Origin: an uncultured Amylibacter sp.
GTDB taxonomy: Bacteria; Pseudomonadota; Alphaproteobacteria; Rhodobacterales; Rhodobacteraceae
Assembly (NCBI GenBank): GCA_943846615.1
Contig: OX044354.1
Span: 2,001,001-2,065,000 of the forward strand
Reading direction: 5' to 3'
DNA length: 64,000 nucleotides
Shown here: piece by piece, positions 10,860 to 57,250 of the stretch
How positions within the stretch are numbered: the stretch's first letter is position 1
Layout of the letters: every line of letters begins with the position of its first letter
Translations under genes and position numbers: made by a program
The notes under the pieces: model-generated
What the model saw: the letters and a program-made list of their open reading frames with translations, nothing else
What the model was told of the DNA's origin: nothing
The model's database searches: none

Positions 10860-10899
10860 TTTGACCTTTAAACAGCTTAAAATATCCATATTGGTCAAA
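10860..10899. promoter_or_regulatory. Inverted repeat between dehalogenase and LysR genes
   Basis: TTTGACC (10860-10866) and GGTCAAA (10893-10899) are exact inverted repeats 26 bp apart in the 105-bp divergent promoter region. Position and spacing suit a LysR-type tetramer or a pair of operator half-sites. The assignment to the adjacent regulator is inferred. Confidence 0.4.
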
Positions 10900-10919
10900 A
10901 ATTTAACCACGAGGCTAAA

Positions 10920-12452: not shown

Positions 12453-13538
12453 ATGAATAGTTTAACCAAAGAGAACAACGCCCACTCTAGTAAAAAAACG
12501 ACACTAAATCGTGGTGGATTAAATCAATTCTTAACTCTTGACGACATCAAGAAAACATCTGTTTTGCAAGAAGTCTCGGGCAGCTTTAAAAAGCTCTTCA
12601 GACGGATTGCTTTTGGCAAAGTTAAGGACATCCAGTTTAAGATTGCATCCCTAAGCGACCAAGGCCAACGTGATTATCAGCAGGACGCAATCATTGTTGA
12701 AGAGTTGGGCGAGGGTTTGGCTTTTGCGGCTCTTTCCGACGGAATGGGTGGTCACGCCGCAGGGGACATTGCCGCAACGCTTGCAGTAGATACAATTCGT
12801 GCCAAGCTATTGGCCGAGATCTCTGAGGCAGATGATCTTGGGAAATTGCAAAAATTATTTTCTGATTGTGTCGATGAGGCCAACAAAGCAATTTCAGAAC
12901 ATACAGAAAAAGACCCAAAAACCGAAGGCATGGGGGCCACACTGGTTGTTGCGTTCGTGCGCGACCACAAATTGTACTGGCTTTCGATTGGGGACTCGCC
13001 GCTCTATTTGTGGCGAAATAAGAAGTTTTATCAATTGAACCAGGATCATTCTATGGCACCGGCGTTGGATATGATGGCCAGCAAAGGTTTGATGACTGCA
13101 GAGGAAGCACGCGCACATCCCAGTCGCAATAATCTGACGTCTGCACTAAACCATCAGACGCCCGAAATGATTGATATCTGCGAAACCCCACTGGATTTGA
13201 TCCCGGGTGACTTGATCCTAATTTCCAGTGATGGGTTGCAAACAATGCAAGACAAAGAAATTGCAAAGACTTTAAACTCATCTGTGGATCGTGATCCACA
13301 GTATATCTGCTCCGCATTGCTCGGTGCAGTTATTGATTTGGCAGACCCCGATCAAGACAACATCGGTGTTGTTGCTATGAAGGTAGAGGCAATTACTGCG
13401 TTTGACATTGCACAAAAAGAACGCGCTGAAATTGAAGCGCATCGTATGAAAGAAATTTCTGCACTTGAAGATGCCGCCTTGGATGAAATCGCAAGGCAAG
13501 ATAAAAAACGAGGAGAAACAGATGCTAAAACTAAATAA
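12453..13538 (+). CDS. PP2C-family Ser/Thr protein phosphatase
   Basis: A 361-residue metal-dependent phosphatase. Core motifs are SLSDQGQRDYQQDA (metal Asp, residues 67-80), ALSDGMGGHAAGDIAA, a KTEGMGATLV segment, SIGDSPLYL, and near the end ISSDGLQ and DNIGVV. It removes phosphate from Ser/Thr in proteins. An unusual 65-residue N-terminal extension precedes the domain. The next gene overlaps its 3' end by 17 bp, and a membrane kinase lies at the end of the same run, so it probably reverses that kinase. GGAGAGGG lies about 17 bases upstream of the ATG, which is rather far for a ribosome site. Confidence 0.88.
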   Translation: MNSLTKENNAHSSKKTTLNRGGLNQFLTLDDIKKTSVLQEVSGSFKKLFRRIAFGKVKDIQFKIASLSDQGQRDYQQDAIIVEELGEGLAFAALSDGMGGHAAGDIAATLAVDTIRAKLLAEISEADDLGKLQKLFSDCVDEANKAISEHTEKDPKTEGMGATLVVAFVRDHKLYWLSIGDSPLYLWRNKKFYQLNQDHSMAPALDMMASKGLMTAEEARAHPSRNNLTSALNHQTPEMIDICETPLDLIPGDLILISSDGLQTMQDKEIAKTLNSSVDRDPQYICSALLGAVIDLADPDQDNIGVVAMKVEAITAFDIAQKERAEIEAHRMKEISALEDAALDEIARQDKKRGETDAKTK

Positions 13539-15108: not shown

Positions 15109-15208
15109 AAGGGGGGTGTCCCAGTCTCGCCGTAGGGCACGTATTTAAGTCAGATAATGGTCCCTTTGAAAGAAAAGTGACCTTAATGATCAGGATTAAG
15201 GAAGAAAA

Positions 15209-16669: not shown

Positions 16670-16739
16670 ACGTACCAATTACGAAACGCCGAACAGGCGT
16701 TTCGCATCAAACGATTGCTAAATTGATAAGGTAAGACTC

Positions 16740-42163: not shown

Positions 42164-42325
42164 AGGGCACCATGTATTCGCAAATAATTGAAAATTCTGT
42201 CAAAAACAGCATTGCATCAGACGCAAAGCGACTATGCGCATCTGGATGTTGTTCAATAGGACAGGGCATCTTACCTTTGTATCAGAAGAGGGCAATGACT
42301 GCCTTCCAGACCAAAGAGGTATCAA

Positions 42326-42571
42326 ATGCCACAAGTATTACAATCAAGCCCAGTCGTCGAATTCGTGAATTCAGCAGCACACGCCGTATACAAAGTAGCC
42401 AAAGCAACTGTCGAAGCGGTTTTAAGCTTTTTCGAACAAGTTTCTCTCGCTCAATCGCGTGCGGATCAAGTAGAACAAATGAATTCACTAACGGATCGCG
42501 AATTGGCCGATCTATTTCAAATCAATCGCGACCAAATCATTCCATACGTTTTCCGCGACAAAATTCTGTAA
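42326..42571 (+). CDS. Small DUF1127-like protein
   Basis: An 81-residue protein with AAAGAGG at good spacing before its ATG. The C-terminal part MNSLTDRELADLFQINRDQIIPYVF resembles the DUF1127 helix-turn-helix (LSDRELxDIGxxRxDI), a family of small Arg-rich proteins that in alphaproteobacteria bind RNA or affect stress and phosphate responses. It lacks the Arg-rich end of the classic members, so the match is partial. It is inside the urease operon, 162 bp after ureC. Confidence 0.65.
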   Translation: MPQVLQSSPVVEFVNSAAHAVYKVAKATVEAVLSFFEQVSLAQSRADQVEQMNSLTDRELADLFQINRDQIIPYVFRDKIL

Positions 42572-42580
42572 ATACCATCG

Positions 42581-42637
42581 ATACGCCATCGGCGTATACC
42601 GACCCTATGGGAGGCCTGTCATGATACCGGCCTCCCA
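42581..42637 (+). promoter_or_regulatory. Two consecutive hairpins after the DUF1127-like gene
   Basis: ATACGCC-ATC-GGCGTAT (42581-42597) is followed by TGGGAGGCC (42608-42616), a 12-nt loop and GGCCTCCCA (42629-42637). Both stems are perfect. No T-run follows. They could end or trim transcripts, or form a stable 3' RNA. Small RNAs derived from DUF1127 gene 3' regions are known in Rhodobacter. Confidence 0.6.
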
Positions 42638-42846
42638 AGAATTCTATTCTCCCTACCATGAAGATTATCAGCCCCAGCGCATCCATAGCGTTAGGTATGC
42701 ATCAACGTCATGCTTTTCATTATTAGCTATGCATTATACGCATTTCGAATATGCCATCTTGTCGCTTTTCCAAAAGGTACGCATTGCTTACCTATCTACC
42801 TGTAGACACAAGCAGGCGACCCAACATGGGTCAAGGAAGCAAAGCA

Positions 42847-43008
42847 ATGGCACTTGGATTAAACATCAGAACACTGGCCTTGGTATTATGTGGCCTGGCA
42901 ATCGGCGAAACCGTTGTCGATCAAGTTTTCAGCGGTCGCGCCCAACGCAACACAGTAACCGAAACCATCGAATTCAAATTCACCAAAGTAAAACGCGCCA
43001 AGGTCTAA
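42847..43008 (+). CDS. Small single-span membrane protein
   Basis: A 53-residue protein. The frame could open at 42751, but only the ATG at 42847 has a good ribosome site (AAGGAAG). It begins with one hydrophobic helix (ALGLNIRTLALVLCGLAIG) and ends in a basic tail (KFTKVKRAKV). No family is recognised. It lies 20 bp before ureE and is likely co-expressed with the nickel chaperones. Confidence 0.5.
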   Translation: MALGLNIRTLALVLCGLAIGETVVDQVFSGRAQRNTVTETIEFKFTKVKRAKV

Positions 43009-43027
43009 GCGTACAACAGGTGGCATC

Positions 43028-43474: not shown

Positions 43475-44105
43475 TCAACATAAATTAATGGCATGGCTCT
43501 CGCCCAGCTACCCCATCGGTGCATTTTCCTACAGCCACGGTTTGGAATACGCCATTGATAATGGCGACGTCACGGATGCTGACAGCTTGCAAAACTGGCT
43601 GCTCGATGTGCTGAAAAACGGGGCAGGGCGCAACGATGCTATCTTGTTGTGTCACGCCTTTCATGCCCCAAACGCGGACGTATTAAACGACATATCAAAC
43701 CTTGCGACTGCTCTATCCGCCAGCGCCGAACTCCACCTTGAAACCACCGCCCAAGGCACCGCGTTTAGCAAGGTAACATCCGCTGTCTACAACGCTGATT
43801 TAGAGGCTATGCCATTACCTGTCGCACTGGGCGCAATGGCGGCGCAACAGGAAATGGATTTAGACACCGTTCTCCCCCTCTATCTGCACAGTTTTGCCGC
43901 GAATATCATCGCGGCAGGTGTGCGTTTTATCCCTCTTGGGCAAACTGACGGCCAGCGCGTATTGGCGAACCTGTTTGATACCTTCGATGCGATTGCAAAA
44001 ACCGCACAAACAACACCTCTTGATGATCTCGGAGGCATTTGTTTCCTAGCCGATATCGCATCAATGAAGCACGAAAAAATGACCACAAGGATTTTCAGAA
44101 CATGA
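43464..44105 (+). CDS. ureF: Urease accessory protein UreF
   Basis: A 213-residue accessory protein starting at ATG 43464 inside the ureE end. Typical segments are [21 protein letters not shown] near the N-terminus and a C-terminal helical bundle. It gates GTP hydrolysis by UreG in the activation complex. Its stop overlaps the ureG start by 4 bp. Confidence 0.92.
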
Positions 44106-44710
44106 CACAAAACGGCCCCCTACGCATTGGTATCGGCGGCCCTGTTGGCGCAGGTAAAACCACATTGACGGAAATGCTGTGCAAACAGATGGGACAAACC
44201 CATTCAATGGCAGTGATCACCAACGATATTTACACCTCCGAAGACGCCGAATATCTGATGCGAAAACAGGTGCTGCCCTTGGACCGTATTCGCGGCGTCG
44301 AAACGGGCGGCTGCCCACACACTGCTATCCGCGAGGACGCCTCAATCAATCTTGCCGCAATTGATGATCTGAACGCAAAATTTCCCGATCTAGATATGAT
44401 TTTGATCGAGAGCGGTGGCGATAACTTGGCGGCAACATTCAGCCCCGAATTAGCTGATATCACAATCTACGTCATAGACGTCGCCATGGGCGAAGAGATC
44501 CCGCGCAAAGGCGGCCCGGGCATCACTAGATCCGACATCCTTATCATCAACAAAACCAACCTCGCGCCCCACGTCGACGTATCTTTGGACGTGATGAATC
44601 ATGATGCATCCAACCAACGAAAATCCAAACCCTTCATCTTTGCCGATATCAAATCAGGCAAAAATATCGATGAAATCGTAGAAACAGTTCAGCGTGTTGG
44701 TGGACTCTAA
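44102..44710 (+). CDS. ureG: Urease accessory protein UreG (GTPase)
   Basis: A 202-residue SIMIBI-class GTPase starting at ATG 44102. P-loop [13 protein letters not shown], nickel-binding Cys-Pro-His in [33 protein letters not shown] and the INKTNLAP base motif are all present. It ends the operon. The acyl-carrier gene on the other strand begins 22 bp later (convergent), with no clear terminator. Confidence 0.95.
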
Positions 44711-44732
44711 CGAACCGGTAATACTAATGTAA

Positions 44733-44969
44733 CTAAGCGGGATTTATCGTTTCAAAAACCGCACGGCTCAGTAGCGCCACCGATGGATTATCCAGCAAAA
44801 TCCAACCTGGTAAATCTGTACCGACAACTTGCGAAAGCTCGCTTAAAATCACCTCAACGGCCACAGAATCTCCACCCTCGTCAAAAAAATCGGCGTTTAC
44901 GTCGATGTCATGCCCCAATGTTTCAACATATTTTTCCAAAATAATTGCAAATAGTTCATTCTCTGTCAT
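44733..44969 (-). CDS. Stand-alone acyl/peptidyl carrier protein
   Basis: A 78-residue carrier protein. DFFDEGGDSVAVEVILSEL contains the GGDS motif whose Ser (about residue 34) carries the phosphopantetheine arm, in the NRPS/PCP form. It overlaps the adenylation gene by 14 bp and is the last gene of the peptide cluster. The adenylation enzyme most likely loads an amino or carboxylic acid on it, for later transfer. Confidence 0.85.
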   Translation of the reverse strand: MTENELFAIILEKYVETLGHDIDVNADFFDEGGDSVAVEVILSELSQVVGTDLPGWILLDNPSVALLSRAVFETINPA

Positions 44970-46368
44970 CGCCGTCCTCCAGTATCATCGCGCGTAGCGA
45001 CACCAAGTCGTTCTTCAAAGATGCCGTAACTGGGATCGTATCAATAGCAACAACATGATCCGGATATTCTGCCGTCGGAAGATTTTTACGAATAATTTGC
45101 CACACTTTGTTGACCTGTTTACTGCGCCCTTCGAAAACCAGATACACGACATCACCTTGGTCCACATTTGGCTTGGATACCACATCTGCATTCGAAATCG
45201 AACTGTCCGCTAGAACGGCTTGTGCCAACCGTTGCGCGTTAAAATTTATTCCGTTGCGACAGAATAATCCTTGAACGCGCCCTGTAATATATAGATATCC
45301 GTCTTCATCAAAATACCCAACATCTCCGGGCCGCCTATCATTGAATTTAACGTTTGAAACCGAAATTTCGCCAACTTCGCCCACAGTGCATTCGCGCATA
45401 CCGTCGAAAATTCGCACACTTAAACCATCCTGGGGCTTCCCAACAGATGCAGGTTTGCGCGTGACTTCGTCACCTAGAATTCTGGCAATTTTTCCAATAC
45501 CAACGGCACTATATGTCATGCGGTAACTGTTGCTAAGTTGTGTAACCGCTCCGCATTTCTCTTGTGGGCTTGCAGGCCCGCCCACAGAACACAGATTAGT
45601 CAATTGCGGGTATCGTAGCGATGACGATTGCGCCGATGGTGCCTCTATTTCCAACAATTGGCGTATCTGACTTGGCGCTAAACCCGCCTCTGAAACGTCG
45701 GCTCTCTTCAAACTATTGTCCAACTCTGTCAAACGATGCACCAAATCCAGCGCAACAATCGAACGCCCCACGGATAATATTGATAGCCACAAAAAACTAC
45801 TGGCCGAATAGGCCACAGACAAAGGGCTGAGCGCCGCGCCAGGTGTTTCCCAATCACGTGCTTGGCTTGTGGCAATCAGGTTTTTTGCCAATTTGGATTG
45901 GGTTATTGGAGTGAAGCGCGGTGCACCCGTGGTGCCAGAACTCGACATGAAAATCGCTATATTATCTGGATAAAAGTTAAGTTGGTCGCTTGAAAAAGCG
46001 ATCGGTTTTGGGTCCACCTCTTGAATATGCTGCGAAATCTCATTATTCGGTTTCAGCCCGATTATGATACGTGCATTTAGTTGTTTTTTAGTTTCTGATA
46101 TACGCGCCGATGGTGTGCGAAAATCAACAAACGCTCCAGCCACACCGTTGATCCAACATGCCAACAATTGCTCTATCGCGCACATATTATCGGATACGAC
46201 AATCAACGCTGTATCCGTAGGTTCTATGCCCACAGATTTCAAATCCATCGCACGCGAATAGACTCGATCAAGTATCTCTTGCCCGGAAAACCAGCGGCCA
46301 CGCCGTTCGATGATCGGCCGATCCTTGGCGTCACACAACGCGTCAAAGATCAAGCGAACGGCCGTCAT
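44956..46368 (-). CDS. Adenylation-type AMP-dependent ligase
   Basis: A 470-residue enzyme of the ANL superfamily that activates a carboxylic acid as its adenylate. Core motifs are A3 MSSSGTTGAPRF, A5-like YSAVGIGK, A7 GDVGYFDEDGYLYITGR, A8 FCRNGINFNAQRLAQAV and a C-terminal Lys in SLKNDLVSLR. It lacks fused condensation or carrier domains, so it is a free-standing loader for the adjacent carrier protein. It starts within the stop of the HExxH gene (4-bp overlap). The substrate pocket cannot be read with confidence. Confidence 0.85.
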   Translation of the reverse strand: MTAVRLIFDALCDAKDRPIIERRGRWFSGQEILDRVYSRAMDLKSVGIEPTDTALIVVSDNMCAIEQLLACWINGVAGAFVDFRTPSARISETKKQLNARIIIGLKPNNEISQHIQEVDPKPIAFSSDQLNFYPDNIAIFMSSSGTTGAPRFTPITQSKLAKNLIATSQARDWETPGAALSPLSVAYSASSFLWLSILSVGRSIVALDLVHRLTELDNSLKRADVSEAGLAPSQIRQLLEIEAPSAQSSSLRYPQLTNLCSVGGPASPQEKCGAVTQLSNSYRMTYSAVGIGKIARILGDEVTRKPASVGKPQDGLSVRIFDGMRECTVGEVGEISVSNVKFNDRRPGDVGYFDEDGYLYITGRVQGLFCRNGINFNAQRLAQAVLADSSISNADVVSKPNVDQGDVVYLVFEGRSKQVNKVWQIIRKNLPTAEYPDHVVAIDTIPVTASLKNDLVSLRAMILEDGDDRE

Positions 46369-47336
46369 TGGGTAAGGGTTGAATTCTTGCTGTATTGTGC
46401 AACAACATCAGCGGCTTCGCCGATGATCTCGCGGCCCAAGGCCGTTAGTTCACCTTGGGCCTTGATGATCTCATTTGCAGCATCAAACGCGGCGATGGAA
46501 CGGTCAAGCTCCGCGTCGATTTCGCTGATCGGTGTGCCGCCAAATATATCTTCACCAAGGTCTATCCGTTTCACATCCGCCAAAAACGCAATCATGCGTG
46601 CCAATACGAACGCGGCGTGGTAAATCCCGTTCATAGGGCGTGGTTCGCGGCGCAATGGACTGGCAAACCTTTGGGATGGATCATTCAAAACGATCTCGTC
46701 ATCCAAATAGGGATAGAATAGTTTTAAATGTGAACTTTCATGCACAATCGTCAAAGCTGTCGACAGGGGCGATACGCAATTGGCGGGATTGATTAAAATA
46801 CTGCCCCATGCGGAAAACGCTGATGCCCCACCAAATTTATTAGCCTTCGCAGTAGCTAAAACGATTGTTTTGACCAAGCTTTCAAACTCCGCCCACCATG
46901 TGGATAGATGATGCTGAAATGTCGGTTTTACCTGTGAAAACATATCATTAAATTGCGCAATATGGGCGGCTGAGGGCATCTCCAGATGCGTGGTCAACCC
47001 TATGTCGTCTTGAAATGCAGATGCAAACAATGCACATTGTGATGCATTCATGTCGGGTGCACCCAATGATTTGACTTCACACGATTTTGATTGGTCGCCC
47101 TGGTATAAAACCGCACCATGAGTATCAAACAATGATCGGATTTCGGCCACGTCGTTATCGACGGCCGCTTGGCGCATTAAATACTGTAATGCATGTGCCG
47201 TCGGGCCTGTCGACGCAATTGATGCTTCATCGGGTTTCTGCAATATGTCTGAAATTAAATAACGGAAGGCTTCTGTAAGCCTTCCGTTAATTTCCGTATT
47301 CATGCTCTGTGTCGCAGTGGAATTTGGTTTGATCAT
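46365..47336 (-). CDS. HExxH-type putative peptide-modifying hydroxylase (RiPP maturase)
   Basis: A 323-residue protein from ATG 47336 (a TTG at 47387 would overlap a peptide gene; another ATG at 47303 is possible). The key motif is VHESSHLKLF (His199-Glu200, His203), followed by SPLRREPRPMNGIYHAAFVLARM. This arrangement is that of the HEXXH motif-containing peptide-modification family (TIGR04267 type, now often named aKG-HExxH peptide beta-hydroxylases), which modifies ribosomal peptides. Three short peptide genes lie directly upstream. It overlaps the ligase by 4 bp. The chemistry here is inferred from family and place. Confidence 0.72.
   Translation of the reverse strand: MIKPNSTATQSMNTEINGRLTEAFRYLISDILQKPDEASIASTGPTAHALQYLMRQAAVDNDVAEIRSLFDTHGAVLYQGDQSKSCEVKSLGAPDMNASQCALFASAFQDDIGLTTHLEMPSAAHIAQFNDMFSQVKPTFQHHLSTWWAEFESLVKTIVLATAKANKFGGASAFSAWGSILINPANCVSPLSTALTIVHESSHLKLFYPYLDDEIVLNDPSQRFASPLRREPRPMNGIYHAAFVLARMIAFLADVKRIDLGEDIFGGTPISEIDAELDRSIAAFDAANEIIKAQGELTALGREIIGEAADVVAQYSKNSTLTQ
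47261..47288 (-). promoter_or_regulatory. Perfect hairpin near the start of the HExxH gene
   Basis: AACGGAAGGC (47261-47270) and GCCTTCCGTT (47279-47288) form a perfect 10-bp stem with an 8-nt loop, inside the first 25 codons of the maturase. On the transcript it comes after the three peptide genes and is followed by an AU-rich stretch. It could dampen transcription or translation of the enzymes relative to the peptides; it may also be chance in coding sequence. Confidence 0.5.
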
Positions 47337-47371
47337 GTATTGATAGTCTTCTTCAGCGGGTGCCCATATTA

Positions 47372-47476
47372 CTATTGTTTTTTGCAACCGGGCCCTGGCT
47401 CAGCTGGCTCGCCAACTTTTGCTGCACCAGCTGCAGAAATTTTAAGTGAAAGCAATTTACTAAGATTGATAGTCAT
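47372..47476 (-). CDS. Putative RiPP precursor peptide 3
   Basis: A 34-residue peptide, too short for routine gene calling. It shares the leader MTI-N-LSKLLSLK and core GAAKVG with its two neighbours, then ends with a longer Pro/Gly/Cys tail (EPAEPGPGCKKQ). The Cys is unique among the three. The core start reads ISAAG rather than VP[ST]SG. GGAC precedes the ATG, a weaker ribosome site than those of the other two. It is the copy nearest the HExxH gene. Confidence 0.7.
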   Translation of the reverse strand: MTINLSKLLSLKISAAGAAKVGEPAEPGPGCKKQ

Positions 47477-47524
47477 CTTTTTGTCCATTCTTATTGAGAG
47501 GGGTAAATTTCGTGCCCGCTGTAC

Positions 47525-47611
47525 CTAGGTAACAGGTTCACCGCCGCCAACTTTAGCTGCCCCCGATGAAGGAACTTTCAGGACAAGTAACTTTTTCAAA
47601 TCGATGGTCAT
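47525..47611 (-). CDS. Putative RiPP precursor peptide 2
   Basis: A 28-residue peptide with the same leader (MTIDLKKLLVLK) and core (VPSSGAAKVG), ending GGGEPVT. An AGAGGT ribosome site precedes the ATG. It sits 26 bp after peptide 1 and 48 bp before peptide 3. Conservation of protein sequence across three tandem copies, with different synonymous codons, argues that these are translated genes rather than a DNA repeat. Confidence 0.75.
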   Translation of the reverse strand: MTIDLKKLLVLKVPSSGAAKVGGGEPVT

Positions 47612-47637
47612 ATTTTACCTCTTTGTATTTGGAAAAT

Positions 47638-47733
47638 TTAGTTTTTCTTAACGGCTGGCTCATTATTGCCAACTTTTGCGGCGCCAGATGTGGGCACTTT
47701 TAGTGCTAGTAGTTTGTGCATATCGATGGTCAT
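47638..47733 (-). CDS. Putative RiPP precursor peptide 1
   Basis: A 31-residue peptide: leader MTIDMHKLLALK, core VPTSGAAKVG, tail NNEPAVKKN. A strong GAGGAG ribosome site precedes the ATG at 47733. A longer frame to 47823 would overlap the thioesterase gene and is not used. It starts 14 bp after the thioesterase stop, so it belongs to the same transcript. The set of short leader plus conserved small-residue core next to an HExxH maturase is why a RiPP precursor is proposed; no known RiPP class is matched. Confidence 0.75.
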   Translation of the reverse strand: MTIDMHKLLALKVPTSGAAKVGNNEPAVKKN

Positions 47734-47747
47734 TGTCTTCTCCTCTA

Positions 47748-48833
47748 TTAACGTCCTCGAAACTTTTGCATAACATTTCTTAAAGTACAAACGAAATTTA
47801 ACCTTTCGGTAACCTTCGCCCATCGTCGGCTACTTTGGTGGTGACCCGTCAAGGAAATCGTTTGAAAATCTGTGATTGGCCACGCACAGGGTCCGACATC
47901 CCGTGCGCAAGCCGCTAGACGTAGAATGAATTCACCTTGAACAGCGGGTTTCTTTAATTTGCATTGATAGTCGTCTCCATGTGTCAGTGGATAGCAAATC
48001 CAATCATCGCCCATTGACCGCAAAGTTTCACCGTTTCGCTCCCACCCTGCAATGATTGCAAGGTCAGTAATTTTACAGGTCGCCTTGGGAGTGCTGACAA
48101 CCAGATATTCTTCATCCTCTTCAATGACATTCCAATGGGGTAATCGCGAAACCGATATTTGCTTCTCGACGATTTTTCTGGCGCCTGATACTTCACGTGC
48201 AAGGCTGGAAACATTTTCAGGGAAAAAATATTCGCCATGCCCTCCATCGACAATTGCGATTTTGACACTGGAAATGGCATGTCGCCAATCCAGCGCAGGG
48301 GCTGCATTCATATCGATTTCCTTTTCAAAAAACGGATTTTGCAGACGGCTATTACGCCCAAACAACATCAGCATTTTGCCTGGATAAGGCCTGCGTAGCA
48401 CGGCATCCAAAGTGATCAAGTCTAAAACATTCGTATCACGCGATTGCATCGAAAGGGCTAACGCATATGAAATCGACGCGGCTTGGCAATTTCCACCGAC
48501 AATGCAAGGCGCGGTTCCGAATTCATTAAATAATTTTTCCGCATAATATTCGCCCAATTCGCGCGCGTGACTGGGCGAAATTGCGGTTGGTTCCAATATT
48601 TGGTTCAAAGATCGCAAACCAACAATCGGTTGATCCGTGCCCAATGCTTCTGCCAACGCGGGAAATTCACCCGCGCTATTAAAGCACCAAAAAATTGGGG
48701 GTTTTGTACCATTTGCATTTAAAATTCTGATACTGCCCCATTCATCTAACGGATCACCAGGCCAACTTTTCACGACCTTGCTGATACGTCGCAGATGTAT
48801 TTGCAATGATGTTTCAGGCGTGGCGACTGGCAT
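47748..48833 (-). CDS. Thioesterase-like alpha/beta hydrolase with Cys nucleophile and extra C-terminal domain
   Basis: A 361-residue protein. The N-terminal 215 residues resemble NRPS-type thioesterases: PIFWCFNSAGEFPALAEAL, then the nucleophile elbow VGGNCQAAS, where Cys116 replaces the usual Ser. Asp143 (ITLDAV) and His199 (DGGHGEYFF) complete the likely triad. A C-terminal part (about 225-361) looks strand-rich and is unknown. Cys-type thioesterases are known in some NRPS systems that form strained rings. Here it may release or transfer the group held on the carrier protein. It lies between the PP2C and peptide genes. Confidence 0.7.
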   Translation of the reverse strand: MPVATPETSLQIHLRRISKVVKSWPGDPLDEWGSIRILNANGTKPPIFWCFNSAGEFPALAEALGTDQPIVGLRSLNQILEPTAISPSHARELGEYYAEKLFNEFGTAPCIVGGNCQAASISYALALSMQSRDTNVLDLITLDAVLRRPYPGKMLMLFGRNSRLQNPFFEKEIDMNAAPALDWRHAISSVKIAIVDGGHGEYFFPENVSSLAREVSGARKIVEKQISVSRLPHWNVIEEDEEYLVVSTPKATCKITDLAIIAGWERNGETLRSMGDDWICYPLTHGDDYQCKLKKPAVQGEFILRLAACARDVGPCAWPITDFQTISLTGHHQSSRRWAKVTERLNFVCTLRNVMQKFRGR

Positions 48834-48918
48834 AACCGTGGGCTTTGTGAAAATGGATTGTTCGTCGGAACGCTACTGTTTGGTTTCAAATTTAACAATA
48901 CAGAAAGTTTTTGTGAAA

Positions 48919-49695
48919 TTACTGTCCAACCGCTACACAAATCGCCAAGTTATCTTGCCCAACCGCGCCTTGGCGTTCGACATTTTGGATAAGCCCATTC
49001 ACCTTGGACGCCGCACATAATGATTTCGTCTTGGCCAAGAATTCCGAAATGTCCGCATCTGAAATCGTTTGAATCCCATCGCTGGCAACCAATAAAACAT
49101 CCCCTTTGGAAAACGTTTTGCCATCTTCTGGGCAATCAATCTTCTTCAAAGGTTCACCCAATAACGCAGAGGTTAATGTATTGCGCGATGCCATTTTCTT
49201 TGCGATGCGCGGATCAATTTGCCCAAGGCTCGCCAAATTATCGATGCCCGTCGCCAGCGAATGATCGGCACTTAACCGTGTCAAACCTGTCTTACCAAAA
49301 CGATAAACCAGACTATCCCCAACCGACAGCCAATAAACACGCGGCCCTACGATTGCGACCAAAACCAACGTGCCACCCATCCCCTTTTTATCAGGGTTAT
49401 CGGTCACAAAACGCGCCAATTCACGGTTGGCAGCGAATGCGGATTTGCGCAGGATTTCAGGGCAAACCTGTGGATTACCGATCAGCTCAGCCATATGTGA
49501 TTTGAAATTCGCTATAGCAGTGCGCTGGATCAATCGACTGGCCAAATGTCCATAACCTGCGCCACCAATCCCATCGGACAGAGCGATGATTGAAACTTGA
49601 CTGGCGTGATCAGTAAACGCTCCAACTGAATCTTGCTGAGACTTACGATCACCTTGAAATTGACCACATGCGATATCCAACTTCGACCCTCGCAT
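48919..49695 (-). CDS. PP2C-family Ser/Thr protein phosphatase
   Basis: A 258-residue phosphatase from ATG 49695, which overlaps the kinase stop as ATGA (an ATG at 49722 would add nine residues). Motifs are GDRKSQQDSVG, IALSDGIGGAGYG, KKGMGGTLVLVA, LSVGDSLVYR, LVASDGIQTI and QDNLAICV. It belongs to the same type as the phosphatase of locus 1. In this operon it follows three kinase-like genes and probably opposes the two active ones. Confidence 0.88.
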   Translation of the reverse strand: MRGSKLDIACGQFQGDRKSQQDSVGAFTDHASQVSIIALSDGIGGAGYGHLASRLIQRTAIANFKSHMAELIGNPQVCPEILRKSAFAANRELARFVTDNPDKKGMGGTLVLVAIVGPRVYWLSVGDSLVYRFGKTGLTRLSADHSLATGIDNLASLGQIDPRIAKKMASRNTLTSALLGEPLKKIDCPEDGKTFSKGDVLLVASDGIQTISDADISEFLAKTKSLCAASKVNGLIQNVERQGAVGQDNLAICVAVGQ

Positions 49696-50618
49696 CAGAT
49701 ATCTTTCAAGGTTTTCAACCACTGTTTCGCGGTGGCGATACGGTCGTCGATTAAAACAGCCATGGAATCGTCAATCGATCCAAAAAACGCGCTGTGTTTT
49801 GATTTCTTGCGTCCCAATGCGGTCAACGGATCGGGTCGCCCTTGGGCCCGCGCATGCAGGCGAGCCACACTTTCGACTGGGCGCTGGCCTGTGATGCAAT
49901 GGCGCAATGTTGCCGCCAATTGATATAAATCCGATGCCTGCCCAACCTTGGCGCCCGCGCGGTAAAACTCCTGTGGACTATAGCCGATTTTCACCACCAA
50001 CATGGGATCATCATCACTGTTTTCGCCAAACGGCGCTGCCGATCCGAAATCAATTAAAATCGGCACGCCTTGTTGATTGATAATGATGTTGTCGGGCGAA
50101 ATGTCTTTGTGCAAATACCCTTTGGCATGAATGGTTTCCAACGCATCCAAAACATCGCGCCCAATCTGTTTGGTTTGTTGGCGTGATGGCCGCTTAAACC
50201 AACTGGACAGATGATCAATCAATGGCTTCCCATGCACCTGATCCATTTCGATATAAACGGTGTTGAACGCGGTTATCAGCAAGCCACCCGCCACAATATT
50301 CTCATGTTCAAATTCCGCTAAAATAGCGGCTTCTTGTTGAAATCCATCGCGTATCATTTCAAAATCATCCGCCAAATCATGGGCCTTCAGCCCGACATCC
50401 AGCCCATTACGGCGACAAAATTCAAACGGAAAACATTCCTTTAACGCAACGTGATGTCCATCAAATCGCCGCGCCAGATAGGTATATCCAAACCCACCCG
50501 ATCCCAAATATCCGGTAATCTCATGTTCATCACCCACACGCGTTCCAATCGGCAGGGCGTCGACGGGTGTCAACCGATCAACCGATGCAGTACGCATAAA
50601 TGAGGGTTTCCACACCAT
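49695..50618 (-). CDS. Cytoplasmic Ser/Thr protein kinase
   Basis: A 307-residue Hanks-type kinase with no membrane segment. Gly-rich loop LGSGGFGYTYLAR (about 38-50), Lys60 in VALKE, HKD 170-172 with Asn177, and DFG 190-192 are present, so it should be active. The Arg of HRD is Lys, which hints that activation does not need the usual phospho-loop contact. Its stop overlaps the phosphatase start, and GGAG precedes its own ATG. Targets may include the neighbouring pseudokinase, kinase 2 or the peptides. Confidence 0.88.
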   Translation of the reverse strand: MVWKPSFMRTASVDRLTPVDALPIGTRVGDEHEITGYLGSGGFGYTYLARRFDGHHVALKECFPFEFCRRNGLDVGLKAHDLADDFEMIRDGFQQEAAILAEFEHENIVAGGLLITAFNTVYIEMDQVHGKPLIDHLSSWFKRPSRQQTKQIGRDVLDALETIHAKGYLHKDISPDNIIINQQGVPILIDFGSAAPFGENSDDDPMLVVKIGYSPQEFYRAGAKVGQASDLYQLAATLRHCITGQRPVESVARLHARAQGRPDPLTALGRKKSKHSAFFGSIDDSMAVLIDDRIATAKQWLKTLKDI

Positions 50619-50630
50619 GAAAGCTCCGAC

Positions 50631-51647
50631 CTATCGACGTAACAACAGGTTTTTAACCCGTATGAAAATTCCTTGGTGTGTCAACGGTGTGCTGCGTTTC
50701 CCAACATCACGTTTCATACGCCTTGTCTCATCAAAATCGATATCCTTGGACATGATGAACATCAATTCAGTGGCGGAATGAACGCGGCTATCGTAAAATA
50801 ATTCCATCGACATATCCATCGCCTTAAGAAAGCGATCATCAAACTTCTTATGGCTCCCTTCCAGTGGCACATACGGATCGGGATCATTTGCCGCCACGGC
50901 GGCAACCCTATCCAAACTGGCCGCTGGCGGTTCGCCCGTAATCAGATGGTAAACCACTGCCGCAACGCAATAGATATCGCTACCATCGCCTTGGCGCGCG
51001 TCATCAAATGTCAACTCAAACGGCGCGTAGTGCTGTGCCGATTGCAACACGGATGACACGACGCGGCTGGCATTACTGCGATCCTCGCGAAAGGTGCCGA
51101 AGTCTGGCAATAACACTGCCGACCCGTCCTTGGTGATCATAATATTGCTGGGCGTAATATCGCGGTGCAACATGCCAAATCCATGAACTTCGACCAGCGA
51201 TCGTGCCAAATCGTTGGCAATTGATGTGATCTGTTTAGGGGTAAACTTGCGACTGGGATCCACGATTAAATCCGCCAATAATTCGCCTTCTGGAATGCTC
51301 TTCACCATATACGCGGTGCCGTTTTCCTCAAACAAATCCAAAACACTCGCCAAATGTTCGCTGTCCAGTGATGTCAAAAAAGTGGCATCACGTAGGAATG
51401 TTTTCACCAAACTGTTAAAAATCTTCGCATCCGCTTTGGCGGGAATTTGGATGTTGTTCCCTTCGCGTCGGCACATATCGCGCAGGAAAAATTCTTTGAT
51501 CGCCACACTCGTCCCATCGGATGTTTTCGCGTGGTAATTATAGCTATTGTTACTGGAACCCTTGATATCAGAAATGGTGTACTCACCACCTTGCAAGGTC
51601 GTCGAAACGGCCAATTCGTCTGTTTGTCTTGATGATGAATGCTGCAT
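50631..51647 (-). CDS. Cytoplasmic Ser/Thr protein kinase with degenerate glycine loop
   Basis: A 338-residue kinase-like protein. Lys51 (VAIKE), HRD 161-163 with Asn168 and DFG 182-184 are present, but the phosphate-binding loop reads KGSSNNSYNYHA and lacks the GxGxxG pattern. It may bind ATP differently or weakly. It ends with a basic stretch after the kinase fold and has no membrane helix. It lies 12 bp before kinase 1; AAGGAT precedes its ATG. Confidence 0.82.
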   Translation of the reverse strand: MQHSSSRQTDELAVSTTLQGGEYTISDIKGSSNNSYNYHAKTSDGTSVAIKEFFLRDMCRREGNNIQIPAKADAKIFNSLVKTFLRDATFLTSLDSEHLASVLDLFEENGTAYMVKSIPEGELLADLIVDPSRKFTPKQITSIANDLARSLVEVHGFGMLHRDITPSNIMITKDGSAVLLPDFGTFREDRSNASRVVSSVLQSAQHYAPFELTFDDARQGDGSDIYCVAAVVYHLITGEPPAASLDRVAAVAANDPDPYVPLEGSHKKFDDRFLKAMDMSMELFYDSRVHSATELMFIMSKDIDFDETRRMKRDVGKRSTPLTHQGIFIRVKNLLLRR

Positions 51648-51758
51648 TTTTCAAATCCTTTTACGGGACACATCACGTATCTTGTTTGCATTTACATAAG
51701 TACGGAACACGAAATTTCCAGTAATTCAGGACGTAAAAAATGTCTCCCGTTTAACGTG

Positions 51759-53306
51759 TTAATCGCCCAGAAAAAGCGCGACAGAAACCGTTCTATCCAC
51801 AATTGTACCATCAAACTGTTTTACGCGAATAGGCGCCGTTCTCTCGCCGGTTTTTTTCTGATCCCAAAGGTATTCAGCAAAGTTAGCAATATTATCAAAG
51901 CCCAAGATTTCATCGCCCACATTCAGCGATGCGTTCGCCCCAGAATCTATCTCAGCTACCTCTAATTTCCACCCCTGTGGATGCGATGGTTGGTGTATGA
52001 CGACGCGCCCCAGTACCGAAATTCCGACGGTATCAAATACCAGAGCAACTTCGCGTTCTAGTGGTAAAACCGCATCATGAACGGTTAGGGCCACAATAGC
52101 GGTTTTCGATTTCGCCAAACTGTCAGACACCAAACGTGGAAAATCAGCGACCTCCTGAACCGCCACACCATCAACGGCCCGCAATACATCACCTGAAACA
52201 AACCACGGATTACGCTGCTTAAAATCTGCATCCGTATCGGACAGGCTCATAATCAACCGTTCACCATCAGGCGATTGCGCGACACGGATCGGCAAATCCA
52301 TACGCCACGAAATCTCGGGCTTGGGCGTCGACAGTTCGTTGCCACCAACCTGCGCATCCAATGGCGTGGCTGTCGAAACCTCATCACTCACGCTCTGAGA
52401 TCCACCCAGCATCGACAATCCGCCCACAGCAAGCCCTGCTATCAACACAGCGGCGCCACTCCACAACCAAACCTTAGAAATGCGTGAAAACAATGGCTGC
52501 TCCGCTGCGTTTTGATGCCGGATAAATGTGTTCCATTGCCCCGCATTTTCAAATCCTTGATCCGACGAGCCCGCCAACATCTGATCGACGCTTTGTAGCA
52601 ACCCATCTGGATAACCATCGACCCGCCCGCGCAACGCAACATAGGGTTCAGGAACATCCTGCCCCGTCAATAACTCATACAGCGTTTGCGCCAATACCAC
52701 ACAGTCATCGCGCGCCTGCGTTGCATCGGACAATTCAAATTCCACCGTTCCATCAATATATTTGCGCAGCAAAACCTGCGGCATGCCATCCGCATCAGAC
52801 AGAGCGATCGCCTTTGGTGCAATTTTAAAACCATAGATTTCAAAGGCATGAATATAATCCAACAGCCCGATCAACGCGGTTGCAACTTTCGTGATTTCAC
52901 TGGAATCATAAAATCCATTTGCGGATGAAAGCGAACGAGATGCATGCGCCCCTAGCTCATCCGCAAAGGTCACATACTGCGTCCCATTTTCCTCAAACTT
53001 TTGAATGATACATTGCAAAGCGGCGTGGTTTAACCGCGATAGTTTCTCAATCTTTTTGGCGGTAGTATCTCGGAAAAATTCCCACAACTTTTCCTTGCCA
53101 GACAGCGCCGAAATACGGCCCTTTTTATCCCTAAAGACAATACTGGGTTTCACTAATTCAAGGATAAGATGGGCATCGCCCAGCGGATCACGCGCCCGAT
53201 ATGTCGCGCCACTTGGCGCTGTTTCAAACAGCTTTAGCGCAGCATATTCACCACCCATCAGGGTTTGGTTTTTCGGAAAAACCATATCGGGCGTTTTTGC
53301 CGGCAT
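51759..53306 (-). CDS. Membrane-anchored pseudokinase with PDZ-like tail
   Basis: A 515-residue protein from ATG 53306 (GGGGAAA upstream; a GTG at 53384 would add 26 residues). The N-terminal 260 residues align with the kinase fold of its neighbours, but the Lys strand reads HLILELVKP, the HRD loop is replaced by YGFKIAPKAIALSD, and DFG by LRKYIDG, so it should not transfer phosphate. A membrane helix (about residues 279-299; VWLWSGAAVLIAGLAVGG) leads to a periplasmic region with two PDZ-like modules (NPWFVSGDVLRAVDG, NVGDEILGFDNI). The layout equals the active kinase at 16.7-19.5 kb. Confidence 0.78.
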   Translation of the reverse strand: MPAKTPDMVFPKNQTLMGGEYAALKLFETAPSGATYRARDPLGDAHLILELVKPSIVFRDKKGRISALSGKEKLWEFFRDTTAKKIEKLSRLNHAALQCIIQKFEENGTQYVTFADELGAHASRSLSSANGFYDSSEITKVATALIGLLDYIHAFEIYGFKIAPKAIALSDADGMPQVLLRKYIDGTVEFELSDATQARDDCVVLAQTLYELLTGQDVPEPYVALRGRVDGYPDGLLQSVDQMLAGSSDQGFENAGQWNTFIRHQNAAEQPLFSRISKVWLWSGAAVLIAGLAVGGLSMLGGSQSVSDEVSTATPLDAQVGGNELSTPKPEISWRMDLPIRVAQSPDGERLIMSLSDTDADFKQRNPWFVSGDVLRAVDGVAVQEVADFPRLVSDSLAKSKTAIVALTVHDAVLPLEREVALVFDTVGISVLGRVVIHQPSHPQGWKLEVAEIDSGANASLNVGDEILGFDNIANFAEYLWDQKKTGERTAPIRVKQFDGTIVDRTVSVALFLGD

Positions 53307-53515
53307 TGTAAACGTTTCCCCACCAAACGAAGCATTTGAAACCTTATTTTGGTATTTTTTTCCATTTTTACAAGTCCCGAACACGCTTAATTAACAGGCT
53401 TATTCTTTAAAGTTACTGTCTCAATACTGTAAAGTTAACCAACGTTACGTTACGCCCCTTGTTTCGACGATTTTGCTGAATACATACGCTCCACGTCTGC
53501 ATTGGGGAACGCGAT

Positions 53516-55333
53516 ATGCGAAACACAGCACCTTGGATATTTTTGATCGCTGGATTGGCAACAACTGGCTATTTCGCGCGTGAATACGCGGCTACGTCGA
53601 TTCAATCCGATATTTCCGCCCATGTAAAACAGGCGGTGCCAGAAGGGACGCGCCACAACGCAAAGATTGATGTTTCTGGTCGTGATATCACGGTTTCGGG
53701 CCTTTTACATGACACGGCCGAACATGACGCATTGATAAAAACCCTGTCGGAACTGCGCGGCAATCGCGTGGTACGCACGGATGATATTACCTTCCTGCCT
53801 GTTGCGGCCCCATTTCAGGGTACAGTGACCAAAGGTCCAAATGGCACAACCGTTGAAACCGTTCTTCCGGACGAAAAAATCGCATCTCAAATCGGGCGCA
53901 GTTTTCAAGGCAATGCCGATATGAAACACGCGTTGGCGTCTGGCATGCCCGATGACGAATGGCCCGCGCAATTGGTCGCGATGGCATCGGTTCTGTCTCA
54001 CATGGAAAATGGTTCGGCGACTTTGGAAGGCACGAAAATCACCCTGTCTGGACGCGCATCAACACGGGCCGCACAACAACGTTTTGAAAATTTCGAAAAC
54101 ACGCTACCCGCTGGCTACAGCCTGAATATGGCATCTGTCGATTACCCGGAACCTTACAATATTACCCTTAACAAATCCCCCGATGGCACGGTGTCGTTTT
54201 CGGGTTTAGCGCCAAAAGAAACCCAAGCATCTGCGATCTCTGACGTGCTGAACATATCGGAATATGACGCGGCAAATTTGGAAAATACTGCCGATGGCGA
54301 CCTATCAGAGGTCGTCGAGAAACTCACCCAAGTTGCCCCCGTTTTGGCGTTAATGAAATCTTACGATGTCACCTTCAAACAGCTGCCAGAGGCATCCGTT
54401 GTCGTGACAGGGGCCGTTTTACCCAATGTCGATTTGGAAGAATTCGCCGCCATTCGCTCCGCGGCAAAATTGGACGCGGCGGATTTGCAAATGCCACGCC
54501 CATTCGATGTGCAATTCTCGCTTGATGCGGTCAAAGGCGCGCAATTGGTCGGCCTCGCACCCGAAGGATTTGATCCAGAACAATTGGCGGCAAATCTAGG
54601 CATTCCAAAAATTAACACTGACAAATTCGAAATCGGTGCGCGTGGTGACTCCGCTGAGCTATCCGATCAAATCAGCGGTCTAAAGCCGGTCTTAGAAGAT
54701 GTGGAAACATTAGAAGTTGGCCTTGAAAGCGCGACCGATCAAGGGCCGCAGGTGAAGGCGGAAACATTACCAAACGCCGACCCTGAACGCGTCGCAAACC
54801 TGTTGAAAGATGTGTTCGTCACACTAACCGAGGTCGACGTCGCCCCCACGAAAAATGTCTACGTCGATGGTCAACAGCGCATCAATGGTATTACAGGGGT
54901 GAAAGAGCAATACCAAGCAGGCTATTGGGTGCCACTGGTCACCGTAACTGATCCCACAATCGCGGGCTGCAAAGTCATTACAGATGCCATTCTTAAGGAT
55001 CGTCAAATTGCGTTTAAATCCGCTGTCGCAAAACTGGACCCATCTGCGCGTGTCGTGATCAACCGTCTGGCGGGCGTGATCATATCCTGCTTCGATCAAA
55101 CGCCACTAAAGGTTGAACTGTCAGGCCACACTGACAGCCAAGGTTTTGATGCTGACAACCTTTTGCTCAGCATCGAACGGGTCAATACAGTGCGCGATGC
55201 CTTGGCCACGCGCGGGGTCGATCTGTTGCGCATGTTGGCTGTTGGTTATGGTGAAACGCAACCCATCGCAGATAATGAAACCGCCGAAGGCCGCCGCGCC
55301 AATCGTCGCACAGAATTTGAATGGCTCAATTAG
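53516..55333 (+). CDS. OmpA-family protein with repeated BON-like domains
   Basis: A 605-residue exported protein. An N-terminal hydrophobic segment (7-22) serves as signal or anchor. Several BON-like repeats follow (for example NAKIDVSGRDITVSGLLHD, and later KITLSGRAS and VVVTGAVLP). The C-terminal OmpA-like domain has VELSGHTDSQGFDADN and RRANRRTEFEWLN, the peptidoglycan-binding form. GGGGAA precedes the ATG. It is divergent from the pseudokinase, so envelope and signalling parts share one promoter region. Similar BON-OmpA proteins (ArfA-like) occur in other bacteria. Confidence 0.82.
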   Translation: MRNTAPWIFLIAGLATTGYFAREYAATSIQSDISAHVKQAVPEGTRHNAKIDVSGRDITVSGLLHDTAEHDALIKTLSELRGNRVVRTDDITFLPVAAPFQGTVTKGPNGTTVETVLPDEKIASQIGRSFQGNADMKHALASGMPDDEWPAQLVAMASVLSHMENGSATLEGTKITLSGRASTRAAQQRFENFENTLPAGYSLNMASVDYPEPYNITLNKSPDGTVSFSGLAPKETQASAISDVLNISEYDAANLENTADGDLSEVVEKLTQVAPVLALMKSYDVTFKQLPEASVVVTGAVLPNVDLEEFAAIRSAAKLDAADLQMPRPFDVQFSLDAVKGAQLVGLAPEGFDPEQLAANLGIPKINTDKFEIGARGDSAELSDQISGLKPVLEDVETLEVGLESATDQGPQVKAETLPNADPERVANLLKDVFVTLTEVDVAPTKNVYVDGQQRINGITGVKEQYQAGYWVPLVTVTDPTIAGCKVITDAILKDRQIAFKSAVAKLDPSARVVINRLAGVIISCFDQTPLKVELSGHTDSQGFDADNLLLSIERVNTVRDALATRGVDLLRMLAVGYGETQPIADNETAEGRRANRRTEFEWLN

Positions 55334-55357
55334 CCACATCGAAAAGGATACTTTAAC

Positions 55358-55801
55358 ATGTTGAATAACTGGAACTTTCTCGTCGCTGAAATTTGGACAT
55401 TTCTGGCAATCGCGGCCATTTTGACTTTTGTGGTATGCTGGTTCGTCTGGGGCCGTTCAGCAGTACGCGCAAACGTAACGCGCCTAAAGCAAACAGAGGA
55501 AGATCTGACACTGGCCCGTTCTGCTTTGACACAATCCCGCGCAGAAGTTCAACGCGCAGAACGCAAACAAGAAGAACTGAAAGATCGCCTTATACGCGAA
55601 AACGCAAAACTGGCCCAGATGAAGAAAGAGTTCGCGGCACAACAAAACGCGGTTCAATCAGCCTCGTCAAACATGAAAAATTTCATAGACCAACGTGTAA
55701 ATGGTGACGGACCAGATGCAGTGCTGATCGACACAATTTCACGCGGATCAACCAAGGCGAAAGAAGCAGTGCAATCGCTGTTCGCGCGTTTCAAATCGTG
55801 A
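55358..55801 (+). CDS. Single-span membrane protein with cytoplasmic or periplasmic coiled coil
   Basis: A 147-residue protein. One membrane helix (about 10-32; WTFLAIAAILTFVVCWFVWG) is followed by a long charged coiled coil (about 40-105, rich in Arg, Glu and Gln) and a short tail. It is 24 bp after the OmpA gene and probably works with it. Its stop touches that of the convergent xylulokinase gene. I do not recognise a family. Confidence 0.65.
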   Translation: MLNNWNFLVAEIWTFLAIAAILTFVVCWFVWGRSAVRANVTRLKQTEEDLTLARSALTQSRAEVQRAERKQEELKDRLIRENAKLAQMKKEFAAQQNAVQSASSNMKNFIDQRVNGDGPDAVLIDTISRGSTKAKEAVQSLFARFKS

Positions 55802-57250
55802 TCATTGGATCGCTTTGATACCGGCATATGCTTTTTGAAATGCCGCGTGGGATTGCCTCATAACATCGCGCATTTCGGGCACAGGCTCTATGGTTTCGTC
55901 AATATCTGGCGCCACCATAACGTCGCCAACCATTGCTCCATTCGCGACCATTCCTAATCTCGCGGCCCCCAGGGCCGCACCAAATTCTCCGCTGGTGGGA
56001 ATATGCAACGGCACATCCAAAACTGTCGCAATCAAGCGCAACCAATACCGCGATGCTGCGCCGCCGCCAATCGCAAACAAACTGTCGAATTTCGCCCCTG
56101 CGGCGACCAACGCTTCAAAACTGTCGCACAGTCCAAACGCCACACCCTCTAGCACGGCTTGGGTCATATCATTACCTGTTGTGCGCGTACTAAGTCCCGT
56201 AAAACTGCCCCGAATATGCGCATCATTATGCGGTGTGCGTTCACCCGATAAATATGGCAGAAACCGTAATTCCGTCGGCGCATGCAAATTTTCACCCAGC
56301 TCTTCGGTCAGGGCCTGCGGGCTCTTGCCAACAATGCCCGACAACCAATTCAAACTGTCGGTAGCACATAACATCACACCCATCTGATACCACTGATCTG
56401 GCACCGCGTGGCAAAACGTATGCACGGCTGTTTGAGGCGCGGGATGATACCCATCGCGCGCCGCCAGCAACACACCCGAAGTGCCCAAGGATACAAAACC
56501 CTGCCCCTCGTGCATTGCACCAATGCCACATGCGGCGGCGGCATTATCACCTGCGCCACCTGCAACAGTAACTGTTTGCGCCAATCCCCAATCGGCCATT
56601 AATTCCGCACGCAATGTGCCGCCAGATTGCGATCCCTCAACCAATCGCGGCATCTGATCACGTCGCATCTGTCCCGCATCCAACAGATACGTGGACCAAT
56701 TACGCGCCCCAACATCCAACCACGATGTGCCCGCACTGTCGGACATATCCGCCACAAATTCACCCGTCAGATAATAATTCAAATAGGCCGCAGGTAATAA
56801 AACTTTGGCCACTTTGTTGAAAACCTCAGGCTCGTTTTGCGCAACCCACAACATTTTAGGCGCGGTAAATCCCGGAAACACAATATTCCCAGATAACGCA
56901 CGCACCCGTTCATCGTTGTCCAGACCAGCGGCCTGTGTCTGTGCGCGCGTGTCATTCCACAAAATACAGGGCCGCAAAACTTGCCCCCCATCATCCAACA
57001 GGGTTGCACCATGCATATGCCCAGCAACACCAATTCCCGTCAGATTTTGAAACGCAGGATATTGATCGCGCAGATCGCGAACCGCACCCTCTAACGCGAT
57101 AACCCAATCGTTGGGGTCTTGTTCCGACCACCCATCATGGGGGCGCGATACATCGAAACTTTTGGAACATGATCCAATCGGCACACCATCATCTGATACT
57201 AATAACGCACGCAAACCAGACGTGCCTAAATCAATCCCCAAATACGCCAT
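55802..57250 (-). CDS. xylB: Xylulokinase
   Basis: A 482-residue FGGY-family kinase that phosphorylates D-xylulose to xylulose 5-phosphate. It has YLGIDLGTSGLRALLV at the start, the sugar-site GVAGHMHGATLLD, ILWNDTRAQTQAA, and the C-terminal ATP motif AIGGGAASRYWLRL. Length matches. No xylose isomerase or transporter is beside it. It begins directly after the rhodanese stop (no gap). Confidence 0.9.
   Translation of the reverse strand: MAYLGIDLGTSGLRALLVSDDGVPIGSCSKSFDVSRPHDGWSEQDPNDWVIALEGAVRDLRDQYPAFQNLTGIGVAGHMHGATLLDDGGQVLRPCILWNDTRAQTQAAGLDNDERVRALSGNIVFPGFTAPKMLWVAQNEPEVFNKVAKVLLPAAYLNYYLTGEFVADMSDSAGTSWLDVGARNWSTYLLDAGQMRRDQMPRLVEGSQSGGTLRAELMADWGLAQTVTVAGGAGDNAAAACGIGAMHEGQGFVSLGTSGVLLAARDGYHPAPQTAVHTFCHAVPDQWYQMGVMLCATDSLNWLSGIVGKSPQALTEELGENLHAPTELRFLPYLSGERTPHNDAHIRGSFTGLSTRTTGNDMTQAVLEGVAFGLCDSFEALVAAGAKFDSLFAIGGGAASRYWLRLIATVLDVPLHIPTSGEFGAALGAARLGMVANGAMVGDVMVAPDIDETIEPVPEMRDVMRQSHAAFQKAYAGIKAIQ

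Follow-up and report, generated by a model that had tools for sequence, protein, structure and literature searches.

The HEXXH enzymes of ribosomally synthesized and posttranslationally modified peptide (RiPP) pathways are described as hydroxylating Asp, His, and Gln and as able to cut the peptide backbone oxidatively (PMC12636437), and hydroxylation of Pro, with Phe also named, is on record as well (PMC13060819; here and below, papers are cited for the available part of their text). A lysine in another RiPP receives a carbamoyl group on its epsilon-N, after which an oxidase other than an HEXXH enzyme beta/gamma-hydroxylates it (PMC13174530). Here we analyzed a window of 64,000 nucleotides (the whole stretch of DNA under study) from an uncultured Amylibacter sp. 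whose genome is a single 2.75-Mb contig. Read in the direction of transcription, a minus-strand run at positions 44733 to 53384 carries genes for a pseudokinase, two Ser/Thr kinases, a PP2C phosphatase, a thioesterase (TE)-like protein, three small peptides, an HExxH protein, an adenylation (A) enzyme, and an acyl carrier protein (ACP). This gene set, proposed in an earlier look at the sequence alone (the original prediction), was confirmed from open reading frames (ORFs) and from Pfam and NCBIfam matches. Our reading, held with about even confidence, keeps the hydroxylation and acylation put forward in the original prediction: the genes from TE to ACP would form a RiPP cassette in which the HExxH enzyme likely beta-hydroxylates the peptides at or next to a core Lys-x-Gly and an A-ACP-Cys-TE relay likely acylates them on lysine, the kinases and PP2C being a separate neighbour.

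The conserved cassette and its predicted precursor peptides

The genes and signals of the cassette are as follows.

47748..48833, minus strand: TE-like alpha/beta hydrolase with a predicted Cys116-Asp143-His199 triad and a C-terminal beta-rich extension
47641..47733 (stop 47638-47640), minus strand: predicted precursor peptide 1, MTIDMHKLLALKVPTSGAAKVGNNEPAVKKN, with AGAGGAG upstream
47528..47611 (stop 47525-47527), minus strand: predicted precursor peptide 2, MTIDLKKLLVLKVPSSGAAKVGGGEPVT, with AGAGG upstream
47375..47476 (stop 47372-47374; alternative ATG 47488), minus strand: predicted precursor peptide 3, MTINLSKLLSLKISAAGAAKVGEPAEPGPGCKKQ, without a clear ribosome site
46365..47336, minus strand: alpha-ketoglutarate (aKG)-HExxH-type peptide beta-hydroxylase by family, 323 amino acids (aa), TIGR04267; H199, E200, H203, and the SPLR...RP..G..H motif intact
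47260..47289, minus strand: hairpin near the HExxH gene start with a 13-bp perfect stem and a U-rich tail (z -5.7), a possible attenuator
44956..46368, minus strand: stand-alone adenylation (AMP-binding) enzyme, PF00501; Lys452 invariant in the alignment
44733..44969, minus strand: carrier protein with a GGDS phosphopantetheine-type site, PF00550; Ser35 invariant in 6

We read 27 HExxH loci including the window, over up to 20 kb each; wider regions were fetched for 17 of the 19 family-genome HExxH matches besides the window (leaving out those of G367 and G098), and the G682 and G425 matches also lay outside the set of wider regions read. The order TE-peptide-HExxH-A-ACP was the same in the window and in the three closest HExxH loci (L024, L025, and L026, 44 to 48% identical to the window). 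Its retention in four genomes supports the original prediction of a RiPP-like cluster with nonribosomal peptide synthetase (NRPS)-type parts, namely, the adenylation enzyme and carrier protein present among the Pfam matches; no condensation domain appeared among such matches (E ≤ 0.1) of the run's 8 larger proteins. L027 and L028 carry HExxH-A-ACP with the TE gene on the opposite strand, and L034 has a fused A-ACP-TE protein of 841 aa after its HExxH gene. The HExxH and TE protein clusters also have longest contigs of 9444, 8737, 8488, and 6890 bases in common, which would fit linkage there too. Plasmid records with a match numbered 4 for HExxH and 5 for TE, and every match covered less than 80% of its query.

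The peptides of the cassette are 28 to 34 residues long. Seven close peptides from the four genomes have in common M1, K7, L9, L11, K12, G17, A19, K20, V21, and G22, and pooled nonsynonymous (pN, 0.109) and synonymous (pS, 0.696) values over 16 codons gave a pN/pS ratio of 0.16, that is, purifying selection. Because of these shared residues and this ratio, we read the peptides as genes; as conserved small genes by a modifying enzyme and under coding selection, they are predicted to be RiPP precursors. No NCBIfam model was matched by nine precursors (the three of the window and six relatives).

A wider family of predicted precursors, having at the sequence level a leader of the D-x-x-K-L-L-G-F type and Lys-rich cores, was found beside most other HExxH genes, with five such peptides in L033. 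In the 26.8 strand-kb immediately upstream of HExxH genes, the strict leader motif picked out 23 peptides, from 16 of 22 loci; it had no match in the 887 strand-kb that make up the remainder of the same loci or in 356 strand-kb of control loci (L041 to L068, which partly overlap and include two from the window's own genome). Since the strict expression was built from peptides already seen, its 23 matches are in part a post hoc result; more independent evidence comes from the absence of background matches and from a later match in L079, made with a looser expression fixed beforehand. Once looser cases were added (L003 and L039 from the looser scan, L004 by eye, and L028 from a short-ORF listing), leader peptides were present in 20 of the 22 loci and in 20 of 27 overall. 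The L028 peptide, MNVDVKKLLILSGSKAASSSKVGEAPVAPAKK, adjoins the TE. Looser-scan matches at L028 7122, L034 13758, L038 6183, L084 6112, and L085 10408 and 9980 were set aside as chance. Lys-x-Gly was present in 26 of 29 cores, with 55 occurrences compared to a mean of 18.7 and a maximum of 32 in 2,000 shuffles.

The HExxH protein matches TIGR04267 with 76.4 bits against a cutoff of 40 (NCBIfam), and its homologs (P0001) suggest the start at ATG 47336. The HExxH sequence and the downstream SPxR...RP..G..HA motif are intact, and the predicted fold is that of the ChlB HExxH domain. By family, it is predicted to be an iron-dependent peptide hydroxylase. The D-x-x-K-L-L leader would be the part bound by the enzyme, which would then beta-hydroxylate at or beside the core lysine. 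In the HExxH tree, which has long branches (L034, L004, L027, and others), a single clade (12 rows, 100/99) united all six loci with unfused A-ACP-TE and six other proteins, and the fused L034 stood outside it on a long branch.

The hairpin falls within the 5' portion of the HExxH gene. Perfect stems of at least 9 bp were 21 times denser between the peptide stop and HExxH codon 50 (5 in 2,984 bp, from 5 of 16 loci) than elsewhere (25 in 310,794 bp), the region tested having been picked after the hairpin of the window was seen. We infer that the hairpin may be a partial attenuator at the start of the HExxH gene that would keep the precursor mRNA in excess. The promoter scan was uninformative, with fewer promoter-like sites (9, including one at the PP2C-TE gap) than the 14.4 expected, and a terminator scan gave 12 terminator-like sites against 10.9 expected. 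Rfam matched nothing in 44000-56000.

Other settings of HExxH genes were also seen. Genome G065 has three HExxH loci, L027 with A-ACP-TE, L033 with its precursors and an ATP-grasp gene, and L036 beside an RTX-repeat protein gene. On a Xenorhabdus plasmid (L089, 5842-8171), an HExxH peptide-modification gene precedes genes for a carboxymuconolactone decarboxylase and an MFS transporter.

The proposed ligation module

Seven of the 27 loci have A-ACP-TE (the window, L024 to L028, and L034). A D-Ala-D-Ala-ligase-like ATP-grasp protein is encoded in 11 others (L003, L030 to L033, L035, L037 to L040, and L079), usually divergently from the peptide-HExxH pair, and a profile of ten of these proteins matches D-Ala-D-Ala ligases (E = 3.1e-6). 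Three more (L004, L029, and L080) have a cyanophycin-synthetase-like ATP-grasp protein. Among Pfam matches of the proteins of the run itself there was no ATP-grasp, which was seen only in sister loci. The chemistry common to the A-ACP-TE and ATP-grasp types is the activation of a carboxylate for amide or ester bonds. It is mainly for this shared chemistry that we read A-ACP-TE as acting on the peptide, and its replacement by ATP-grasp proteins in relatives points to carboxylate activation plus ligation as the second step of the pathway. L080 (9506-11904) places its HExxH gene beside the cyanophycin-synthetase-like gene, comes from another family of the class, and has no recognisable leader peptide.

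In the proposed relay, the A enzyme would adenylate a carboxylic acid, probably not an ordinary alpha-amino acid, and load it on the carrier. At a position in the A4 region where LgrA has Asp, by a hidden Markov model alignment, the enzyme of the window has Ser; in the alignment of the A enzymes, Ser is shared there by L024, L025, L026, and L028, whereas L027 has Gly and L034 has Ala. The Cys-TE would then take the acyl group from the ACP for transfer to the epsilon-amine of the lysine or the newly made hydroxyl, not to water; the acyl-thioester of SulM and ObiF, two Cys-type TEs, is attacked by a beta-hydroxyl or a sulfamate (PMC11298585). The TE Cys and His were invariant in 7 of 7 sequences in one alignment and in 13 of 13 in another. 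By predicted fold, the best structural match was the Pks13 TE, not a Cys-type TE, and the TE alone matched PDB sequences weakly (E = 0.0011). Its close group has a beta-rich C-terminal extension (residues ∼225 to 330) that is missing in the aligned stretches of L027, L028, and L034; this extension is a candidate for the peptide-binding part.

Alternative readings and the neighbouring kinases

Several results weigh against a RiPP cassette with an acylating relay, above all the plasmid of a Phaeobacter strain on which a Cys-TE/A/ACP set occurs with no HExxH gene or leader peptide detected; because of it, such a set need not act on a peptide. L027 combines A-ACP-TE and HExxH genes, and in it, as in L080, no leader peptide was recognised; the looser expression gave none in the five distant loci L081 to L085, and in these and L036 (6 of 27 loci) the queries used found no ligase. 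The TE triad Asp is replaced by Asn in L027 and L028 and by Glu in L034, Lys-x-Gly is absent from three cores (L040 and both L003 peptides), and Lys is not named as an HExxH substrate in the available text of PMC12636437 and PMC13060819. Distribution is patchy: of 394 family genomes, 18 have HExxH relatives (20 matches), as do 2 of 33 genomes of the same genus. Finally, no transporter, leader peptidase, or GNAT-type acyltransferase beside the cassette is common to the loci; some of them have, within 20 kb but several kb away, ATPases belonging to a generic ABC-transporter cluster. The Phaeobacter plasmid region itself (L086, Phaeobacter sp. G2, 7169-14030) encodes the Cys-TE, an AMP-binding enzyme, a 728-aa protein (two P450 halves by eye), the ACP, and a carbamoyl transferase.

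The Phaeobacter set, together with a plasmid of Gemmobacter aquarius that encodes a fused A-ACP-TE and likewise lacks a detected HExxH gene or leader peptide, would fit a reading in which HExxH alone modifies the peptides and A-ACP-TE, merely in the same operon, yields a small molecule of its own, its acyl group leaving, for example, as a free acid or being moved to a metabolite. We consider this unlikely, as A-ACP-TE and HExxH occur together in six other loci (L024 to L028 and L034), five of them with a leader peptide, the unfused A-ACP-TE loci fall in one HExxH clade, and relatives keep a different ligase beside HExxH. Peptides also serve as scaffolds in the pathways of PQQ, mycofactocin, and pearlin, and a Lys-derived unit could similarly be built and acylated on the peptide before cleavage releases it as a cofactor or metallophore of small size. 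The precursors are indeed very short, relatives have repeated Lys-x-Gly units, no exporter beside the cassette is common to the loci, and HEXXH enzymes can cut backbones oxidatively (PMC12636437); no dedicated protease was found, however, and we rate such a scaffold as quite improbable. A reading in which the A enzyme and TE act on the peptide's own carboxylate, giving a Lys-to-Glu lactam or a C-terminal macrocycle like that of graspetides, would draw on the Glu-Pro that follows Lys-Val-Gly by a few residues in 6 of 7 close A-ACP-TE peptides (with equal spacing in five) and on the ATP-grasp proteins in the module's place in relatives. Most ATP-grasp-type cores, however, have no Glu-Pro at the corresponding place, and A enzymes paired with a carrier protein normally activate free acids; we rank this reading lowest.

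Very little probability, in our judgment, attaches to the proposal that the kinases and PP2C belong to the pathway, phosphorylating the peptide or controlling its enzymes, even though they share its strand, with a gap of 85 bp from PP2C to TE. Neither the kinases nor the pseudokinase or PP2C had a match in the 26 other HExxH loci (19 plus 7, each of at most 20 kb; tblastn, E ≤ 1e-3). Pseudokinase matches were found in 81 of 388 family genomes, but a full-length one only in the window's own genome, the next best being 29% identical over the kinase domain. The genomes with both gene kinds that were looked at (G120, G159, and G300) have the kinase on another contig or 1.7 Mb from HExxH, and no Ser/Thr is invariant across the seven close peptides. 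Linkage of the kinase/PP2C genes and the cassette is probably shared by a close relative, because the longest contig given for the homologs of PP2C (P0094, 74%), TE (P0083, 54%), and HExxH (P0003, 65%) measures 9444 bases in every case; in contrast, a 72% PP2C homolog lies on a contig of 52,952 bases, a size with which no HExxH or TE entry is listed. The original prediction had placed both peptides and kinases in one system: the neighbourhoods of HExxH genes elsewhere bear out the peptides, with leaders in 20 of 27 loci, and largely fail to bear out the kinases. The kinases and PP2C are thus probably bystanders or local regulators, a separate lineage-specific neighbour of the RiPP cassette, and were found as follows.

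48919..49695, minus strand: PP2C phosphatase, outside the conserved cassette
49695..50618, minus strand: Ser/Thr kinase, neighbour
50631..51647, minus strand: Ser/Thr kinase, neighbour
51759..53384, minus strand: pseudokinase, neighbour; catalytic motifs missing by eye, a hydrophobic helix, and a subthreshold PDZ match

A class III/IV lanthipeptide synthetase, in which a kinase is joined to lyase and cyclase domains, was rejected, since the kinases (307 and 338 aa) match LanL/LanKC over one kinase-like stretch and with scores far under the cutoff, for example, 79.9 bits against 650. On the plus strand, 53516-55801 adjoins the pseudokinase and encodes a divergent OmpA protein (subthreshold BON match) and a small coiled-coil-like protein; a nearly full-length paralog (33%) from this region lies elsewhere in the genome (G000:C1:1301702). 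A second kinase-phosphatase set (12453-19463, plus strand) comprises PP2C, a PBP-like/OmpA fusion, a PilJ-domain protein, and a 907-aa kinase. At 42164-43027, ∼860 bases have no convincing gene among the ORFs listed, between apparent urease alpha-subunit and UreE genes (by eye).

Comparison with known systems

The acylating RiPP cassette, if real, would use three small genes to couple the tailoring of ribosomal peptides to acid activation of the NRPS type, and its ligation module would have been exchanged among three protein types. It would also provide a ready set for comparing how HExxH and ligase enzymes act on Lys-x-Gly, as well as a compact tool for acyl transfer to genetically encoded peptides. 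The leader motif is a direct handle for mining genomes for more precursors. We regard a modular new family of peptide natural products as likely; the fuller proposal of a new RiPP class, with D-x-x-K-L-L leaders and Lys-x-Gly cores, lysine beta-hydroxylation by HExxH, and an acid cap added by an exchangeable module (A-ACP-Cys-TE in one branch, ATP-grasp in others), we hold tentatively, at a little short of even confidence.

The original prediction named no described system with this gene set, and in the open-licence papers searched we found nothing that combines HExxH and such precursors with either ATP-grasp or A-ACP, nor this leader; for SjiH, the literature search gave no relevant paper. 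A RiPP with an HExxH enzyme is known in itself, and the degree of newness hinges on whether the peptide is a substrate of the A-ACP-TE relay.

Acyl-RiPP hybrids such as lipolanthines, goadvionins, and selidamides resemble the proposal in that a carrier-borne acyl group is joined to a ribosomal peptide, but they use polyketide or fatty acid synthases and GNAT-type transfer, whereas the window has A-ACP and a Cys-TE. The Cys-type TEs SulM and ObiF1 are domains that end NRPS assembly lines, whereas the TE of the window is free-standing and has a C-terminal extension in a run without a condensation domain. Graspetides have an ATP-grasp ligase by a small precursor, as do the sister loci of the window, and adenylation domains are named among their low-frequency neighbours (PMC13097080); the run of the window differs in having no ATP-grasp and another leader and core, and HExxH is not mentioned in the available text of that paper. 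The std cluster, which makes a homocitrulline RiPP, follows the same chemical logic as that proposed here, capping of the core-lysine epsilon-amine plus beta-hydroxylation, but does so with a carbamoyltransferase and an MNIO enzyme rather than HExxH and A-ACP-TE (PMC13174530). Closest are the aKG-HExxH RiPP hydroxylases (ChlB/ChlH, PflC/PosC, PesO, and BpmH), with which the protein of the window shares TIGR04267, the motif, the ChlB-domain fold, and a place beside a small precursor gene. Their clusters differ in the partners described, which are radical SAM, MNIO, nitroreductase, GNAT, or asparagine-synthetase-like proteins, with ATP-grasp and thioesterase unmentioned in the available text (PMC12636437 and PMC13060819), and the leader and Lys-x-Gly core of the window's precursors are unlike those given there for known HExxH clusters.

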